Of a DNA stretch of 64,000 nt, positions 27,810 to 61,198 are shown in pieces. Position numbers and translations under genes: made by a program. Below the pieces are notes generated by a model that worked only from the letters and a program-made list of their open reading frames with translations, was not told the origin of the DNA and searched no databases. This stretch comes from Haloterrigena salifodinae (GTDB taxonomy: Archaea; Halobacteriota; Halobacteria; Halobacteriales; Natrialbaceae), in contig NZ_RQWN01000003.1 in NCBI RefSeq assembly GCF_003977755.1, positions 558,001-622,000 on the forward strand, given 5' to 3'. How positions within the stretch are numbered: position 1 is the stretch's first letter; each line of letters starts with the position of its first letter.

Positions 27810-28340
27810 TCAGTCCGCAGTCGCATCGACAGACGAGCCGGTAGTCGCAGCCGGTATCGAGACGGTCCCGGTCGCATCCGGAATCTCGCGCTGTCGGTCG
27901 TCAATCGCCGCCCGGAACACCTGCGCTAGCTGCTGGACCGTTTCCGGCGAGTACGACTGCTGTGGGTTGGTCCGGCATTCGCTCGAGTCGCGATCGGCGG
28001 TCGCCGTCCCGACCAGCGGAACGCGGCCAACGAGCAGCGCGAGGAGTCGTCGCAGTCGGTTCGCAGGCGAGCGGGCGCGATCCCCCTCAGCCTCATTCAC
28101 TCGTCCCGCGGATTCGCCGGCCGTCCGTTTCTCCCGCTCGACGTACCCCTCGAGTCGCGCCCGAACGGTCTCCAGTTCGCGGCGCGTGAGTTCGTCCGTC
28201 GGCTCGACGCCCGTAATATCGACCAACAGGTCGCGATGTGGCTCGAGCGAGAGCCGCCACTTACCCTCGTCACCGTCGAGTCCCTCGATCGGCGGCGGCA
28301 TCCGTTCCTCGTTGACGCAAATCCGGAGTTCCCCTCCCAT
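27810..28340 (-). CDS. Hypothetical haloarchaeal protein
   Basis: 176 residues from ATG 28340. The composition is acidic and halophile-like, with the opening MGGELRICVNEER and a predicted helical centre (ELTRRELETVRARLEGYVEREKR, written here in part). I do not recognise a domain and see no signal peptide or strong membrane helix, though LLALLVGRVPLVG near 110 is mildly hydrophobic. An AT-rich promoter-like stretch (28340-28390) lies directly upstream, supporting expression. The region has lower GC than the neighbours, so horizontal transfer is possible. Confidence 0.5.
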   Translation of the reverse strand: MGGELRICVNEERMPPPIEGLDGDEGKWRLSLEPHRDLLVDITGVEPTDELTRRELETVRARLEGYVEREKRTAGESAGRVNEAEGDRARSPANRLRRLLALLVGRVPLVGTATADRDSSECRTNPQQSYSPETVQQLAQVFRAAIDDRQREIPDATGTVSIPAATTGSSVDATAD

Positions 28341-28756
28341 GAATCGTTAAATCATACTGACTAATATGTATTTAATACTTTGGGTAATAGATATACGTTC
28401 GAAAACGTATTCTCGGATTTCGCGTTCGAAATCCACGGGTCGCTGCGGCTGACTTCGTTACCGATCGCGCTTGCCGCTCCGTCGGAGTGAGTACCGAGAT
28501 CGTCACCGATCGAGTCGCTGTCTCGATGCAGTTCCGTCGGTCGGGTCCGCTCCAGCCGTTTCGAGCGCCGTTCCGACCGTTCTCCCTCGCCATCGGAATA
28601 CGTATTCCGGGTTGAACGGCAGTTCTTCCCGGTCCGGGAGTCGACTCGCATTCGTTCTGTGAGCGGATATGATGGACTATGTACTGGTATGTATTCAAAC
28701 GTATATAAAATATAACATCTTATCTTCGATTTTTCGAAGTTTTTGGTAGGAAACTC
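28341..28756. promoter_or_regulatory. AT-rich divergent intergenic region before metallophosphoesterase
   Basis: 416 bases, clearly more AT-rich than average, especially at 28341-28395 and 28675-28745. It should contain the promoter of the leftward hypothetical gene and, at about 28700-28716 (GTATATAAAATATAAC), a strong TATA element for the metallophosphoesterase-ppk1 unit. Overlapping leftward frames of about 100 codons cover much of it but look non-coding. Confidence 0.55.
28724..28739 (+). promoter_or_regulatory. Perfect hairpin CTTCGA-TTTT-TCGAAG followed by T run, in the leader of the metallophosphoesterase gene
   Basis: Six-base arms with a TTTT loop, followed by GTTTTT, ending 17 bases before the GTG start (28757) and downstream of the TATA element. 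It looks like an intrinsic-terminator or operator shape. In archaea the T run alone could terminate, so attenuation or repressor binding are both possible. Confidence 0.5.
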
Positions 28757-37273: not shown

Positions 37274-37319
37274 TGGGCACAGTATGCAAGCGGCCGTGGT
37301 AAGGGCGGACGCTGACTAG

Positions 37320-38459
37320 TCAGCGTGCGTCCGCGCCGGACTTCTCGAAGAGGTGTCGCAAGACGGTCTGCTGGGCCTTTCGTAGGTGCTGGTTGAAGGT
37401 CTGGCGCGTGACGTCGAAGCGGTCGGCCAACTCGTCGCCGGTGCTGGTCCGGGGCGTATCGAAGTAGCCGCCGAAGTAGGCGGCATCGAGCGCCGACAAC
37501 TGTCGCTCGGTGAGCGCGTCGGCGACGACGCCGTACAGCAACTGGGGCGAGTAGACGAGGTCTTCGGAGACCAGTTCGACTTCGGGGTGGAACCGCCGGA
37601 TCCCGGACGCGGCTTGCCGGGGATCCACGTCGCCGGGCAACTCGCCCAGAAACCGGACCTCGTCGGGAGCGATCACAACGGCGCGGGCGCGACCGCCGAG
37701 GTCCGGAAACACCTGCGAGACTGTCGCCGACTCCGCCTTCGCTTCGACGCGATGGTAGCCGTCGATCGAACTGAGCAACCGCGCGTCGTGGTAGTGGGGC
37801 ACCTCCTCGACGGCGGTCACGAACTCGCTCGCCGGGAGGTCCGATGTCCCCATGTACTGGACGGTCGTCCCGTTCTGCAGCGAGACGACCGAGTCGACCT
37901 CGAGTCGAATTTCGTCGTCCGCGACCCGCAGGGAGGGCGGGACCGCGGTCCGGTCCGTGCGGAACTCGAGGCGCCGGACGTGGTCGCTGGTCAACCGCTC
38001 CTCGCGGCGCTTCAGCGCCGTCGCGTCCTCGAAGGAGACGACGACGTACTCCACGTTCCCGTCGTCGTCCAGTACAGGCGCCGAATTGCTCGAGAGCCAC
38101 CGCTCGGAGCCGTCGGGGAGTTCGATCCAGTGTTCGAAGCCGTAGACGGGTTCGCCCGTCTCGAGAACTTGCGTAACCGGGTTTTCCGACACCGGAACGG
38201 GCGAGCCGTCGTCGTAGTAGATGTTCCACTCGGTCTCGGCGTACGACCGGCCGACGATATCTTCGTTCGTCCGGCCGAGCGTTTCCGCCGCTCGTTCGTT
38301 CGCGAAGGCGTAGCTGCCCGCCGAATCGATCACGACGGTGCTGACCGGGTTCACGTCGAACACCCGCCGAGCCAGATCCTCGGGCGGGGTTCGGACAAAC
38401 TTGTCTTCTTGGAGGTCGACCGACTCCTCGGTCTCGTCGTTCTCGGCGGACTCCGTCAC
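37320..38459 (-). CDS. PAS and HTH_10 domain transcriptional regulator (Bat-like)
   Basis: 379 residues. An N-terminal PAS domain (about 30-150) contains NPVSTVVIDSAGSYAFANERA, IVGRSYAET and the closing VVSFEDATALKRRE. A beta-rich bacterioopsin-activator GAF/HTH-associated region follows (about 160-310), then the HTH_10 domain (LTERQLSALDAAYFGGYFDTPR, ELADRFDVTRQTFNQHLRKAQ). The protein is soluble and probably senses redox, oxygen or a small ligand through PAS. Its targets are unknown; the downstream HalOD1 gene may share its signal. Confidence 0.92.
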   Translation of the reverse strand: MTESAENDETEESVDLQEDKFVRTPPEDLARRVFDVNPVSTVVIDSAGSYAFANERAAETLGRTNEDIVGRSYAETEWNIYYDDGSPVPVSENPVTQVLETGEPVYGFEHWIELPDGSERWLSSNSAPVLDDDGNVEYVVVSFEDATALKRREERLTSDHVRRLEFRTDRTAVPPSLRVADDEIRLEVDSVVSLQNGTTVQYMGTSDLPASEFVTAVEEVPHYHDARLLSSIDGYHRVEAKAESATVSQVFPDLGGRARAVVIAPDEVRFLGELPGDVDPRQAASGIRRFHPEVELVSEDLVYSPQLLYGVVADALTERQLSALDAAYFGGYFDTPRTSTGDELADRFDVTRQTFNQHLRKAQQTVLRHLFEKSGADAR

Positions 38460-54252: not shown

Positions 54253-55584
54253 TCAGCGATGAAGGTGACATGCGGCGAAGTGTTCGCCTGAGCCAACGGT
54301 CGACTCGAGTTGGTACGCGGGCCGCTCCCGAGCGCAGATACTCTGCTCGGCAAACGACTCGAGCAAGAGGGAACTCGCTTCGTCCCAGTCGTCCTCGTCG
54401 ACCGCGTCGCCGCGGTCGGTCGCGATCCGGTCGATCGCCTCGGTGACGGTTTCGCCGGCCTCGCCGCCGGGCGGTTGGCCGCCGAAGAACTCTCGGCGGA
54501 TCTCGTCGGCCGACATCGCCTCGAAGGTCCGGCGTTTGACCGCCCGCATGAACGCGCGGGTGTGGGCCCACTCCTCGTCGGTCAGGTCGTACTCCGCCGG
54601 CGCGATCAGCCGCGGACACCGCGTTCGGAACCGACAGCCGGAGGGCGGATCCTGCGGGCTCGGCACCTCCCCCTCAAGGACGCCGCGGACGCCCGACTCC
54701 CGCGGATCCGGGACGGGAATGGACTCGAGCAACGCCTTCGTGTAGGGGTGTTGGGGATTCTCGAACAGCTCCTCCTTCTCGGCGACCTCGACCATGTGGC
54801 CCAGGTACATCACCGCCACGCGGTCGGAGACGTAGCGGATGACCGAGAGGTCGTGGGCGATGAAGAGGTAGGTCAGGCCGAACTCCTCCTGGAGTTCGTC
54901 CATCGTGTTCATCACCTGGGCCTGAATGGAGACGTCGAGCGCGGAGACGGGTTCGTCACAGACCACGAAGTCGGGGTCGACCGACAGCGCCCGCGCGAGG
55001 TTGATCCGCTGGCGCTGGCCCCCCGAGAATGCGTGAGGGTGGCGGTTGTAGTGGCGCGGGTCGAGCCCGACCTTCTCGAGCAGTTCCTTCGCCCGCGCCT
55101 CTCGGCCCTCGTCGTCTAACATGTCGTGGGCTCGCATCGGCTCCTCGATGATCTGGCCTACCTTCATACGGGGGTCGAGCGACGACTGGGGGTCCTGGAA
55201 GATCATCTGCATGTCCGAGCGCATGCGCCGCAGCTCCTCGCCGCCGAGGTCGGCCAGGTTCCGGCCCTTGAAGTAGATGTCCCCCTCGGTCGGCTCGAGC
55301 AGGCGCAGGATCGTCCGCCCGAGCGTGCTCTTCCCGCAGCCGGACTCGCCGACGAGTCCGAGGGTCTCCCCGGGTTGGATCTCGAGCGAGACGTCGTCGA
55401 CCGCTTGCACCGTCCCGGGATCCATGCTGATCGGCGGGAACTGATCGGGCTCGAACTGCAGCCCCGCGAACAGCCCTGACTCTTGGGCGAAGTGCTTCGA
55501 GACGGCGTCGAGTTCGAGCAGCGGGCCGTCGCCCTCGTAGCCGCTGTCGTCGCCCAACCGGAGGTCGCTACTCACGGCGCTCAC
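54253..55584 (-). CDS. Dipeptide/oligopeptide ABC transporter ATP-binding protein (DppF/OppF type)
   Basis: 443 residues. Walker [13 protein letters not shown] signature SGGQRQR, Walker [12 protein letters not shown] and the H-loop LFIAHDLS are all present. The family C-terminal oligopeptide segment is [13 protein letters not shown]. An extra ~100 residues follow it ([15 protein letters not shown] and onward), with several His/Cys residues at the end, as in other haloarchaeal homologues. It is the last gene of a five-gene operon and overlaps the preceding ATPase by 17 bases. It energises import of peptides. Confidence 0.93.
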
Positions 55585-56734
55585 CTCCGTCGTCGGCCGT
55601 CGGGTTCGGGGCGAGGCCGGACTCGGAGTCAGTGTCGACGGAATCCTCCCCGCTCGGCGTCGGTTCGCGGTCCTCGAGCGGCGGACTCTCGTCGTAGCCC
55701 ACGTCGAAGACGTCGTGTTTCACGCAGGCCGCCCGGTGGGGTTCGCCGTCGCCCGCGACGATCTTCGGCTCGGGGTGGACCCGCTTGCACACCTCCCGCG
55801 CGTGGGGACAGCGCGGGTGGAACCGACAGCCCGAGGGCGGGTCGATCGCTTCGGGCATCACGCCCTCGATGGGCTCGAGGTCGCCGACGGTCCGGTCGGG
55901 GCGCGGCATCGAGTCGAGCAGGGCATCCGTGTAGGGGTGTTTAGTGTCGTAGAAGAGGTCGTCGACGGCGGCCTGTTCGATGATCTCGCCGAGGTACATG
56001 ACGTTCACGCGGTCGCAAATCTCCGCGACGACGCCCAGATCGTGGGTGACCCAGATAAAACTCGTCCCGTACTTCGCCTGGAGCTCGTCGACCAGATCGA
56101 GGATCTGGCCCTCCACGGTGACGTCGAGCGCCGTCGTCGGCTCGTCGGCGATGATGAGGCTTGGCTCGCAGGCCAGAGCCATCGCGATGAGCACGCGCTG
56201 GCGCATTCCCCCGGAGAACTGGTGGGGGTACTCCTCGTAGCGCTGCTCGGGATCGGGGATACCGACCTCCCGAAGCATGTCGATCGCCTCCGCTTTCGCC
56301 TCGTCCTCTCCGAGGCCGCGGTTGAGTTCGATGAACTCCCGGAGCTGTCCACCCACCGTGAAGACAGGGTTGAGCGACTCCATCGGATCCTGGAAGATCA
56401 CCGCGATCTCGTTGCCCCGGATCCGGGTCCGGATCTCCTCGTTCGAGAGCACGTCGTCGCGCTCCCGGAGTTCGCCGTTCGGCCCCTCCTCGAGGCCGAA
56501 GATCGTCTCGCCCTTGTAGGTGATCTCGCCGGCGACGATCTCGCCGGGATCCTCGACGAGCCGCAGCAGGCTCATCGAGGCGACCGACTTGCCGGCGCCG
56601 CTCTCGCCGACGAGGCCGACGATCTCGCCCTCGTGGACCTCGAAGGAGATCCCGTCGACTGCGCGCACTGTACCGGTTTCCGTGAAGAACTGCGTCTTGA
56701 GGTTCTCGACGCGAAGGAGTGGTTCGGAGCTCAT
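55568..56734 (-). CDS. Dipeptide/oligopeptide ABC transporter ATP-binding protein (DppD/OppD type)
   Basis: 388 residues from ATG 56734; the frame continues 14 codons upstream into the permease gene. Walker [10 protein letters not shown], signature SGGMRQR, Walker [12 protein letters not shown] and H-loop WVTHDLG are visible, then the family C-terminal cluster [14 protein letters not shown]. It starts one base after the DppC-like stop. It pairs with the DppF-type ATPase to power the transporter. The acidic C-terminal ~40 residues are halophile decoration. Confidence 0.93.
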
Positions 56735-56735
56735 G

Positions 56736-57767
56736 TTAGTCGTTGATCCGCGGGTCGAGGGCGTCCTGTAAGCCATCGCCGAACAGGTTGAAGCCCATGA
56801 TGGTGATCATGATCGCGATTCCCGGCCAGATCGACAGCCAGACGTTCGAGTGCATGTAGCCGTGGGCGGTCCTGAGCATCGCGCCCCAGTCCGGCGTCGG
56901 GGGCTGGGCGCCGTAGCCGAGAAACGAGAGACCGGCAACGATGAGGATCGTCACGCCGATTTGCAGCGTCGCGTACACCAGCACCGGCGCGAAGCTGTTC
57001 GGAATGACGTGTCTGAGGATGATGTTGCGATCCCTGACCCCCGCCGCCCGCGCCGCCTCGATGTAGTCCATCTCGCGGATGCTCAGGACCCGGCTCCGGA
57101 TGATGCGCGCGAACACCGGGATGAACGTGATCCCGACGCCCAGCACCGCGTACCAGATGTTCGCCCCGCCGACGAAGACGGTGAAGACGATGATGAGGAT
57201 CAGCGGCGGGATCGAGTAGACCGTTTCGACGGCCCGCATCAGGACGTCGTCGATGCGGCCGCCGTAGTAGCCGGCGACGGCGCCGATGAGCGTTCCGCCG
57301 AGCAGTCCGATAAAGGCCGATATCAGCCCGACGAACACCGACACCTGGGTGCCGTAGACGATCCGCGTGAAGTAGTCCCGACCGGCGCGGTCGGTTCCGA
57401 GCGGGTGCTCGAGGGTGCCGCCCGCCGGCAGCGGGTTCCACGACTGCTCCGCGAGCGGGAAGTACGGCGGCACGTGCGCCTGGCCTTCGCCCGGCGCCGG
57501 GATGTGGGTGGGGTGGTCGAAGATCGGGATCGCCCGCGCGAAGGTAAAGTCCGACAGCAGTCCGAACGTGAGCAGCGAGAGGTTGCTATCGATCAGGGCG
57601 TACACCGCGACGAACAGCACGAACGAGACGATGTACAGCCCCCAGCGGGCCGTCGTGTCCCGTTTGACCTGCGCGACGGTGTACCGCCAGCCGACGCGCG
57701 CTTCGACTTCTTCGTCCTCCGCGACCGATTCAGAGCCGCCTTCGATCTGTGATTCGCCAACTGCCAT
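56736..57767 (-). CDS. Dipeptide/oligopeptide ABC transporter permease (DppC/OppC type)
   Basis: 343 residues. An N-terminal OppC_N segment with the first membrane helix (LYIVSFVLFVAVYALI) is followed by the permease core with the EAA loop (YIEAARAAGVRDRNIILRHVIPN). The motif ADRAGRDYFTRIVYG of OppC proteins is intact. About six membrane helices. It starts two bases after the DppB-like gene and belongs to the same operon. Confidence 0.93.
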   Translation of the reverse strand: MAVGESQIEGGSESVAEDEEVEARVGWRYTVAQVKRDTTARWGLYIVSFVLFVAVYALIDSNLSLLTFGLLSDFTFARAIPIFDHPTHIPAPGEGQAHVPPYFPLAEQSWNPLPAGGTLEHPLGTDRAGRDYFTRIVYGTQVSVFVGLISAFIGLLGGTLIGAVAGYYGGRIDDVLMRAVETVYSIPPLILIIVFTVFVGGANIWYAVLGVGITFIPVFARIIRSRVLSIREMDYIEAARAAGVRDRNIILRHVIPNSFAPVLVYATLQIGVTILIVAGLSFLGYGAQPPTPDWGAMLRTAHGYMHSNVWLSIWPGIAIMITIMGFNLFGDGLQDALDPRIND

Positions 57768-57769
57768 GC

Positions 57770-58771
57770 TTATTCACTCTCTCCGTAGGTGACGCGCGGG
57801 TCGACGTACGCGTAGGAAATGTCGGTGATGATGACGCCGATCACGAACAGGAACCCGAGCATCATCGTGATCCCCATCACGAGCTGGTAGTCGTTCTGGG
57901 CGATCGCGTCGACGAATAGCCGACCCATACCGTTGATGTTGAATACCGTTTCGACCAGCACCGCGCCGCCGATCGCCGTCGACAGGTTCAGCCCGACGAT
58001 CGTGATGATCGGCAGCTGGGCCACGTTGAAGGCGTGCTTTCGCAGGATCGTCCGCTCGGGCACGCCGTAGGCGCGGGCCAGCTTGACGTACTCGCCCTGC
58101 AGCGACTCGATCATCTGGGTGCGCTCGACGCGCATGATCGTCGCCATCTGGAGTGTCCCCAGCGCGATCATCGGCAACAGCAGGTGCCTGAGCGTCTCGT
58201 AGTACAGCTCCGGGTAGCTGCTGATTCCTCGAACGGAATCGGGCGATCGCCAGGGATAGACGAGCCCGCTCGAGGGGAACCAGCCGAGTTTGACTGCGAA
58301 GATCAGGATCAGGACGATCCCGATCCAGAACGACGGCGTGCTGACGCCGAAGAGGGCGACGATCCGCGAGACGTGATCGGTCGGTTCGTTGCGCTTGTTC
58401 GCGGCGATGATGCCGAGCGGGATCGCCGTCACGAGGGCGAACGCGTACGCGGACAGGACCAACAACAGGGTCGGACCGACCCGCTCCAGCATTAGGTCCG
58501 CGACCGGGCGCCGGTAGTAGATGCTCCGGCCGAAGTCGCCCTGCAACAGGCCGGCCATGTACGTCACGTACCGCTCGTGTAACGGCTGGTCCAGTCCGTA
58601 CCGCTGTTCGATCGCTCTGACCTGTGCTTCGGTGTGCTCCTGTCCCTGGAGCATGAGGCTGACGGGATCGCCCGGGCCCAGGTTCGCCAGCAGGAACGTG
58701 ATGACGGAGATCCCGATCAGGACGGGGATCGCCTGTAGGATCCTGTATGTCGTGTACTTGAGTAGTTTCAT
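57770..58771 (-). CDS. Dipeptide/oligopeptide ABC transporter permease (DppB/OppB type)
   Basis: 333 residues with six membrane helices. N-terminus RILQAIPVLIGISVITFLL is the classical DppB opening; LGPGDPVSLM and the EAA loop (YVKLARAYGVPERTILRKHAFN) follow. It forms the pore with the DppC-type permease. 123 bases separate it from the substrate-binding protein gene upstream, a normal gap for a highly expressed first gene. Confidence 0.93.
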   Translation of the reverse strand: MKLLKYTTYRILQAIPVLIGISVITFLLANLGPGDPVSLMLQGQEHTEAQVRAIEQRYGLDQPLHERYVTYMAGLLQGDFGRSIYYRRPVADLMLERVGPTLLLVLSAYAFALVTAIPLGIIAANKRNEPTDHVSRIVALFGVSTPSFWIGIVLILIFAVKLGWFPSSGLVYPWRSPDSVRGISSYPELYYETLRHLLLPMIALGTLQMATIMRVERTQMIESLQGEYVKLARAYGVPERTILRKHAFNVAQLPIITIVGLNLSTAIGGAVLVETVFNINGMGRLFVDAIAQNDYQLVMGITMMLGFLFVIGVIITDISYAYVDPRVTYGESE

Positions 58772-58894: not shown

Positions 58895-60472
58895 TCACTC
58901 GACCGAGACGTTCGCGTAGTCCGAGACGAAGGTCGGGTTGTACGTGGCGTCCGGATGGGCCTGCAGATCCTGCACATAGTCGCGCGAGGCCATCGTGTTG
59001 TCCTGCGTGAACGCGGGTAGCGCCGGCAGTTGCTCGACGATCTCCCGGATGATCGGCTCGTAAATCTCGTAGCGCCCCTCCTGATCGGCCATGTTACGCG
59101 CCTGTGCCAGTCCCTCGTGGAAGCCGTCGCTACCCTCGTAGAAGTGGCCCTGATTGAGCTCTTCCTGGCTCTCGTGGAACAGCGAGTAGAGGTAGAAGTC
59201 CGGATCGGGACCGCCGCTCCACCCCAGCAGGTACATGTTGTAGTCGTCCGCGTTGCCCGTGGTGTAGGTGTCCACGAGCGTCGAGAAGTCGAGCTGCTGG
59301 ACGTCGGCCCCGTAGCCGATCTCGTCGAGCCGCGTGGCGATCCGTTCGGCGAGTTGCGCGCGGATCCCCTCCGGCGTGATGATCGTCGGCGCGAAGTCGT
59401 CGGGCGCGTGCTCGTCTAACAGCGACTGGGCCTCGTCGGGATCGTACCCCGGCAGGAGCTCCTGGTACTCGTCTTCGGGGAATCCCCAGACCTCGTTGAC
59501 GACCGGCGGAATCGGGCTGTACATCGGCGAGGTCACGTTCGCGGCGTTGGACTCGATGAAATCCTCCATCGAGAACGAGTAGGCGATCCCCCGGCGGACC
59601 TCTGGGCTGGTCGTGGGCCCCTCGTTGCAGTTGAACGCCATGTACATGTACGTGGCACTCTCGGCCGAGTGGAGGTTCACCCCCTGCTCGTTCTCGAGGA
59701 CGTCCCAGTCGTCGTTCGGAACGCCCGCGATCACGTCGGTGTTCTCGGCCCGGATGTCCGAGACCCGCCCCGCCGAGTCGTCGTGGGCCACGAACCGGAC
59801 TCGCTCCAAGTTCGGCTCCAGATCGTCCCAGTAGTCGTCCCACCGCGCGATTTCGACGTAATCGCCCTCGAGTTCTTCGAAGGTGAACGGACCGCTCCCC
59901 ACCGGCTCCCTGTTGAACGCCTCGGAATCCTCAGACCGGACGCTTTCGGGCACCACCGTCACGCCCATCGTCTGGAGTTCGAACGGGCCGTACGGTTCCT
60001 CGCCGAGGTCGACCTGCAACTGGTAGTCGTCGATGACCTCGGTGCTCTCGATCATGTCGTACTCGGCGGCGTTCTCCGTCTCCTCCTCGACGGGGGCGGT
60101 AAACGAATAGGCGACGTCCGAGGCGGTCACGTCGTCACCGTTGTGGAACTCGGCCGCCTCCTCGATCTCGAAGATATAGCGCGTCCCCTCGCGCTCGACG
60201 GTCGGTTCGCCCGTCGCGATCTTCGGCTGGAGCTTGAGGTCCTCGCCGAACTCGTAGAGTCCGTCGAAGACGTGGTTGATCACTTGGAAGCTGTAGACGT
60301 CGTTCGAAACGACGGGGTCGAACTGATCCTCCCGTGATTGCTCTTGCGTGAAATGGAAGGCGTCGCCGTCGCCATCACCCCCACCGATGCACCCTGCGAC
60401 CGCTGCCGCGGAGACGGCAACACCTGAGGCGAGGAGCCGCCGTCGAGTTACTGCTGAGCTACGTTGCACCAT
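58895..60472 (-). CDS. ABC transporter substrate-binding lipoprotein (SBP_bac_5, peptide type)
   Basis: 525 residues from ATG 60472; an in-frame upstream reading to 60520 covers the promoter. The N-terminus is a Tat lipoprotein signal (TRRRLLASG, lipobox VAGC with C28) followed by a Gly/Asp linker. The family pattern is visible: FEIEEAAEFHNGDDVTASD (split), GSGPFTFEELEGD, and AFNCNEGPTTSPEVRRGIAY. It captures peptides or related solutes (nickel or sugars are possible in this family) outside the cell. It is the first gene of the operon and its start region carries a 19-base palindrome. Confidence 0.92.
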   Translation of the reverse strand: MVQRSSAVTRRRLLASGVAVSAAAVAGCIGGGDGDGDAFHFTQEQSREDQFDPVVSNDVYSFQVINHVFDGLYEFGEDLKLQPKIATGEPTVEREGTRYIFEIEEAAEFHNGDDVTASDVAYSFTAPVEEETENAAEYDMIESTEVIDDYQLQVDLGEEPYGPFELQTMGVTVVPESVRSEDSEAFNREPVGSGPFTFEELEGDYVEIARWDDYWDDLEPNLERVRFVAHDDSAGRVSDIRAENTDVIAGVPNDDWDVLENEQGVNLHSAESATYMYMAFNCNEGPTTSPEVRRGIAYSFSMEDFIESNAANVTSPMYSPIPPVVNEVWGFPEDEYQELLPGYDPDEAQSLLDEHAPDDFAPTIITPEGIRAQLAERIATRLDEIGYGADVQQLDFSTLVDTYTTGNADDYNMYLLGWSGGPDPDFYLYSLFHESQEELNQGHFYEGSDGFHEGLAQARNMADQEGRYEIYEPIIREIVEQLPALPAFTQDNTMASRDYVQDLQAHPDATYNPTFVSDYANVSVE

Positions 60473-60489
60473 AGCATATGATATGCTAT
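60471..60489 (-). promoter_or_regulatory. 19-base palindromic operator over the start of the peptide ABC operon
   Basis: ATAGCATAT-G-ATATGCTAT: two perfect 9-base arms around one central base. It begins at the SBP start codon and covers the predicted transcription start, since a TATA box lies at 60499-60506. Binding there would block transcription, so a repressor of peptide uptake is likely. Confidence 0.7.
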
Positions 60490-60498
60490 CACGAACCA

Positions 60499-60506
60499 GA
60501 TATAGT
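60499..60506 (-). promoter_or_regulatory. TATA box of the peptide ABC operon
   Basis: ACTATATC on the leftward strand, centred 31 bases before the SBP ATG. The predicted start of transcription (about 60477) falls inside the palindrome, and the mRNA would be almost leaderless. Confidence 0.6.
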
Positions 60507-60538
60507 TTTTGCCGCATCACATATCGTCTCGGAAAATA

Positions 60539-60606
60539 ATGTCCAATGATATACGGAAATAAGGCCTCATGAGAATGTCTGGGCGGTATAGACGATTATT
60601 GGACAT
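60539..60606. repeat. 9-base inverted repeat pair ATGTCCAAT / ATTGGACAT, 50 bases apart
   Basis: Perfect arms at 60539-60547 and 60598-60606 in the gap between the peptide operon and the PPC gene. The spacer is 50 bases of mixed sequence. It could be a paired regulator site, a small folded RNA or the ends of a tiny element; no transposase is nearby. Confidence 0.45.
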
Positions 60607-60778: not shown

Positions 60779-61198
60779 ATGAACTACCGCACCGTCGAGA
60801 CGACGGACGAGTACGTCGCTCGCCTCGAGCACGGCGCCGACTGGCGGGCCGAGATCGAGTCGCTCGCGGGCGAGGTCGACGCCGACGCAGCCTGGTTTAC
60901 CGCCCTCGGCGCGGTGCAGGACGCGGAACTCTGGTTTTACGATCAGGACGAGTGCGAGTACTACCCAATCGAGTTCGACGAACCGCTCGAGGTCGCGACC
61001 TGCGTGGGGAACGTCTCGTGGCTCGGCGGAGACCGATTTGCCCACACCCACGCCGTCCTCTCGGACGACGAGGGGACGACGTATTCCGGCCACCTGAACG
61101 AGGCGACGGTCTGGGCCGGCGAGGTCTACATGCGCGTCTTCGCGGACGAACTCGAGCGCGAACACGACGAAACCACCGATCTGGACCTGTGGCTCTGA
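60779..61198 (+). CDS. PPC (DUF296)-domain protein
   Basis: 139 residues from ATG 60779; an ATG at 60770 would add three. The PPC fold is recognised by AAWFTALGAVQDAELWFYD, the later GGDRFAHTHAVLSDDEGTTYSGHL (metal-like His pattern H-x-H) and AGEVYMRVF. In plants the domain is linked to AT-hook DNA-binding proteins; archaeal stand-alone proteins are trimers of unknown role. It ends one base before the DNA polymerase D large-subunit gene, so it is probably co-transcribed with it, an order seen in other haloarchaea. Confidence 0.9.
   Translation: MNYRTVETTDEYVARLEHGADWRAEIESLAGEVDADAAWFTALGAVQDAELWFYDQDECEYYPIEFDEPLEVATCVGNVSWLGGDRFAHTHAVLSDDEGTTYSGHLNEATVWAGEVYMRVFADELEREHDETTDLDLWL

Follow-up and report, generated by a model that had tools for sequence, protein, structure and literature searches.

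A perfect 19-bp dyad over the predicted transcription start of a peptide ABC operon in Haloterrigena salifodinae: candidate lineage-restricted operator or fortuitous symmetry

Why should the first gene of a peptide transporter operon begin within a perfect palindrome, and does this symmetry mark the binding site of a repressor? We addressed this question for a locus of Haloterrigena salifodinae contained in a 64,000-nucleotide stretch of contig NZ_RQWN01000003.1, referred to here as the window. An initial annotation had described a perfect 19-base palindrome, and it was found exactly at positions 60471 to 60489, reading ATAGCATAT-C-ATATGCTAT on the minus strand and ATAGCATATGATATGCTAT on the plus strand. 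Two 9-base arms flank one central base and all nine pairs match (9/9), a symmetry suited to a dimer. The site is the sole match to the 19-mer in the window at up to three mismatches.

The palindrome had been said to directly precede the ATG of the substrate-binding protein (SBP) gene. It does lie at the SBP start, but it overlaps the ATG (minus-strand 60472-60470) by two bases, ending with the A and T of this codon. Similarly, its reported distance of about 25 bases downstream of the TATA box fits the centre of the dyad (about 22 bp from centre to centre), whereas the near edge is only 11 bp from the box. The TATA centre lies about 30 bp from the ATG. The G+C content is 37% over the 68 bases from 60473 to 60540, compared with 66% for the whole window. 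The A-rich stretch GCAAAAA at 60506-60512 is presumably a BRE, given its position and the BRE consensus, and forms a good TATA/BRE with the CTATAT box. Because of the position of the TATA box and the rule that archaeal transcription starts 26 to 27 bases from the TATA centre, as given in PMC4158304, the start would fall inside the palindrome, with the transcript probably beginning at about 60474 to 60478, within the downstream arm. This would agree with the promoter geometry that had been proposed, namely, a TATA box, a start inside the dyad, and a nearly leaderless gene.

Table 1. Features of the peptide ABC operon and its promoter (window coordinates)
Feature	Position	Strand	Remarks
Candidate operator, dyad ATAGCATAT-N-ATATGCTAT	60471..60489	.	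On the minus strand, its final two bases open the start codon
TATA box CTATAT	60500..60505	-	-33 to -28 from ATG; same in four sister species
BRE-like A-rich stretch GCAAAAA	60506..60512	-	Abuts TATA on the upstream side
Predicted transcription start zone	60472..60478	-	26-27 bases from TATA centre, or leaderless at ATG
SBP_bac_5 substrate-binding protein, peptide type, first gene of the operon	58895..60472	-	
Permease 1, BPD_transp_1 with BPD_transp_1_N	57770..58771	-	
Permease 2, BPD_transp_1	56736..57767	-	
ABC ATPase 1 with oligo_HPY	55568..56776	-	
ABC ATPase 2 with oligo_HPY	54253..55584	-	
Divergent neighbour with PCC domain (PF03479), then polC (DNA polymerase II large subunit)	60779..61198	+	

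The domain content of the five genes bears out the assignment as a peptide ABC operon, with one SBP_bac_5 protein, two BPD_transp_1 permeases, and two ABC ATPases carrying oligo_HPY. No regulator gene had been seen next to it, and we likewise found no HTH regulator in a scan of ten proteins encoded around it. The PCC gene adjoins the operon in 13 of the 28 named-genome loci and in all six genus loci (6/6). Relatives lacking the palindrome have the same PCC/polC neighbours beside the operon, so the pair gives no sign of being a partner specific to the site.

Read from the sequence, the dyad has about an even chance of being an ordinary lineage-restricted operator at which a dimeric repressor would block RNA polymerase. 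As with the start site, we infer the binding protein, the repression, and the inducer: a dimeric winged-helix or similar regulator, encoded away from the operon, would bind both half-sites, which would lie on adjacent helix turns. The bound dimer would span roughly -13 to +6 around the predicted start and deny RNA polymerase access to the TATA/TFB complex. Release of the regulator would depend on an inducer, possibly peptide or nitrogen status.

A haloarchaeal parallel comes from Natrinema sp. J7-2, which we take to belong to the same family as the host of the window. In the sptA promoter of that organism, PMC6085418 describes SPS3 (GAA-N4-TTC), a negative element just upstream of the start. 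SPS3 resembles our site in that it is a semi-palindromic haloarchaeal element placed between TATA and start, but its sequence is different and, according to PMC6085418, mutation of its 3' half lowered rather than raised expression. More generally, PMC4158304 and PMC6085418 place the action of archaeal repressors that prevent polymerase recruitment downstream of TATA, over the start. The examples given in the former are MDR1 of Archaeoglobus, Phr of Pyrococcus, and the Thermococcales TGM of TrmBL1/Tgr acting as a repressor. These sites are like ours in that the dyad lies downstream of BRE/TATA, over the predicted start, where a bound protein would block polymerase recruitment. The consensus sequences are different: neither TGM (TATCAC-N5-GTGATA) nor the TrmB site (TACT-N3-AGTA), as stated in PMC4158304, was seen by eye on either strand of 60460-60520.

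The strongest competing explanation is that the symmetry is fortuitous, the AT-rich stretch between TATA and ATG having turned palindromic in this lineage with no protein partner. TATA-like and CATATG-like words are self-symmetric. We consider such an origin quite possible, if somewhat short of an even chance. When the promoter's own 66 bases were shuffled, an equally good dyad arose in 74 of 200,000 trials. At this rate, one or two such dyads would be expected per several thousand promoters if all were equally AT-rich, but only about 0.02 over the some 50 promoters of a window, or, as a rough estimate that allows other spacers, roughly 0.1. At window scale, a chance origin of the dyad in its own promoter is unlikely. 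The occurrence of dyads window-wide is not remarkable; the window holds seven with arms of at least 9 and a spacer of 0 to 1, most of them GC-rich, against a mean of 1.7 (range, 0 to 4) in 15 Markov sequences, and our palindrome has company of at least equal arm length on this count.

Start-proximal dyads in the organism's own genome also speak against chance. We examined 342 start windows, comprising 341 crude gene-start calls from 464 kb and the SBP promoter, and found six such dyads, some of which may be coding given how crudely the starts were called, where shuffles led us to expect about 0.24. The AT-rich class contributed two, against 0.015 to 0.02 expected. A smaller earlier test (20 shuffles, 341 windows) had given five dyads against 0.55 expected. 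Because start-proximal dyads are commoner than chance, their excess favours a function for the class, and because that excess is clear, most of them are not chance.

Conservation was followed in the upstream sequences of SBP orthologs from 30 loci of a relatives search and 28 named-genome loci, which came to 49 distinct sequences after loci without a usable start and identical sequences were dropped. The initial annotation had looked to conservation of the palindrome before orthologous operons; instead, it is absent outside a four-species clade and decays inside it. Symmetry at the site is 9/9 in the organism itself (G000), 8/9 in G003, 7/9 in G002, and 6/9 in G001, which shares its upstream sequence exactly with Haloterrigena salina JCM 13891. 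The remaining 45 distinct sequences show 0 to 5 of 9, with 1/9 each in two further members of the genus, G004 and G005.

Within the clade, every half-site fits ATANCRYAY, and the G002 site carries three substitutions in its 19 bases (84% identity) where its flanks are 72% identical; flank identity at the site is 0.95 for G003 and 0.72 for G002. Of the nine pairs, four differ between sister species, with no compensation in a count by eye; pairs are broken at about the rate at which substitutions arise, as expected of fortuitous symmetry. The four-way alignment has 14 of 19 columns invariant. We had taken this for an unusually conserved block, a view that was dropped after comparison with the 38 promoters that have orthologs in the same four genomes. 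From -17 to -1, the SBP promoter has 12 of 17 invariant bases and ranks 22nd of the 38, which range from 1 to 17; the median among the remaining 37 is 13. By this comparison, the 17-bp block next to the ATG is under no special constraint, and the sister conservation is what fortuitous symmetry would predict, that is, ordinary start-proximal conservation.

We also compared the decay of the dyad with that of 28 other perfect dyads with arms of at least 8 outside crude gene calls, many of which are GC-rich and, as these calls are crude, possibly coding. Full symmetry was kept by 16 of the 23 that map to G003 and by 7 of 22 in G002. The proposition that the arms of our palindrome decay faster than other dyads is only weakly true and was set aside, given the 7/22 kept in G002 and the recurrent TCGACTGAC dyad at C3:460709, which is also down to 6/9 there. 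As judged from these alignments, conservation leans against an operator, but it is not decisive, because the recurrent C3:460709 dyad itself falls to 6/9 in G002.

The variable columns are unevenly spread, with 1 of 10 in the upstream arm and centre and 4 of 7 in the downstream arm before the ATG. Such a pattern would suit a directional core-promoter element (an initiator or melting region), in which the upstream arm ATANCATATC matters and the symmetry is incidental. However, the columns are too few for significance and the element is missing from orthologs outside the clade, and we regard this explanation as very unlikely. Least probable of all, and barely worth retaining, is an RNA hairpin that buries the start codon: an 8-pair stem could form if transcription began upstream, but with the start set within the palindrome by the TATA box, the 5' arm should stay untranscribed, the fold (-8.1 kcal/mol) is no better than the shuffle mean (-9.7 kcal/mol; z, +0.65), and the stem is broken in sister species. 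A terminator scan found no terminator-like site here, bacterial sigma-70 and terminator models being uninformative for an archaeon.

The initial annotation had left the binding protein as an unassigned global or distant factor. The search that it proposed, for the 19-mer with mismatches allowed, returned no second site at up to three mismatches in the organism's own genome (99.6% complete), as fortuitous symmetry would also have it. At the same threshold, 28 of 125 family genomes had a match, with 33 matches in sum against 35 for the reversed control. The relaxed pattern ATANCRYAYNRTRYGNTAT, which fits all four sister sites, likewise showed no excess in six genus genomes, G000 included (64 matches at up to two mismatches against 60 for the reversed control, as sums), and its only zero-mismatch matches were the four sister sites. 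A global regulator was accordingly rejected, there being no second site in the own genome and no excess over the control in the genus or family genomes. Among the relaxed-motif matches, a dyad-like word resembling ATATCGCANTATGTGATTT recurs (G003:C1:70107, 324415, and 2741648; G001:C59:5057; G004:C1:731075 and 843097). A full-text literature search found neither the core 13-mer, on both strands, nor the 19-mer in any paper.

Two dyads picked from the organism's own genome, both of which recur across the genus, served as yardsticks in the same six genomes. TTTAGGCTAGCCTAAA gave 24 matches at up to one mismatch against 0 in the control. Boxes of this type, which we take to be those of haloarchaeal metal regulators (DtxR/SirR), are, like our palindrome, short perfect dyads close to a start and occur in the same genome; they differ in sequence and in recurring, which the peptide-operon site does not. 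The second yardstick, TCGACTGACNGTCAGTCGA, gave 57 matches at up to three mismatches against 13 and was perfect in four of the six genomes. Its copy in the own genome lies at G000:C3:460709-460727 (L102:2709-2727) and is likely an operator or other shared element.

Other elements were noticed along the way. At window positions 28594-28609, the gap separating two starts (minus strand, near 28340; plus strand, near 28756) holds a dyad, CGGAATACGTATTCCG. Its G003 counterpart reads CGGAGTACGTACTCCG, a compensated double change that preserves 8/8 symmetry although the flanks are poorly conserved (0.68 identity), and in G002 symmetry is 6/8; it is a better operator candidate than the 60471-60489 palindrome. 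A nested inverted repeat around ACGCTGACTAGTCAGCGT lies near a start at 37305-37334, with one near-centre mismatch in G003 and G001, and was not found in the G002 stretch. Finally, a GATAMCAAA-like element occurs about 36 to 38 bases before the SBP ATG in many orthologs (for example, L006, L007, L009, L014, L017, L018, L061, and L070). The pattern is present in 15 of the 49 upstream sequences, three times at -45, against a mean of 0.8 and a maximum of 4 in shuffles, and some of the promoters that carry it have no obvious TATA. GATAMCAAAR was counted 64 times in the six genus genomes against 21 in the control. The element is missing from the SBP promoter in the four-species clade.

Taken together, the regulatory reading of the initial annotation is partly supported, and we narrowly favour an operator over fortuitous symmetry. 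For an operator stand the 74 in 200,000 shuffles, the start-proximal excess in the own genome, the common half-site pattern, and the identity of the G002 site above that of its flanks; against it stand the lack of a second site, motif counts close to control, the absence of compensation, average conservation, and the absence of an adjacent regulator. A more specific proposal is unlikely: that the dyad belongs to a new regulator with the site ATANCRYAY-N-RTRYGNTAT, a single-target repressor encoded elsewhere and confined to one Haloterrigena clade, whose operator would have been replaced within the genus. Over the orthologous promoter of the congener G004 (L007) lies a different dyad, the inverted repeat GATACCAA-N10-TTGGTATC, which is present at 7/8 in G005 (L006).

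Control of peptide uptake was not found described in a limited literature search. If the symmetry is due to chance, the locus would serve as a useful caution: when a perfect dyad covers an AT-rich archaeal start, its conservation should be compared with that of matched promoters. If the dyad is an operator, it would add one more haloarchaeal repressor site and provide a handle on the control of peptide uptake.
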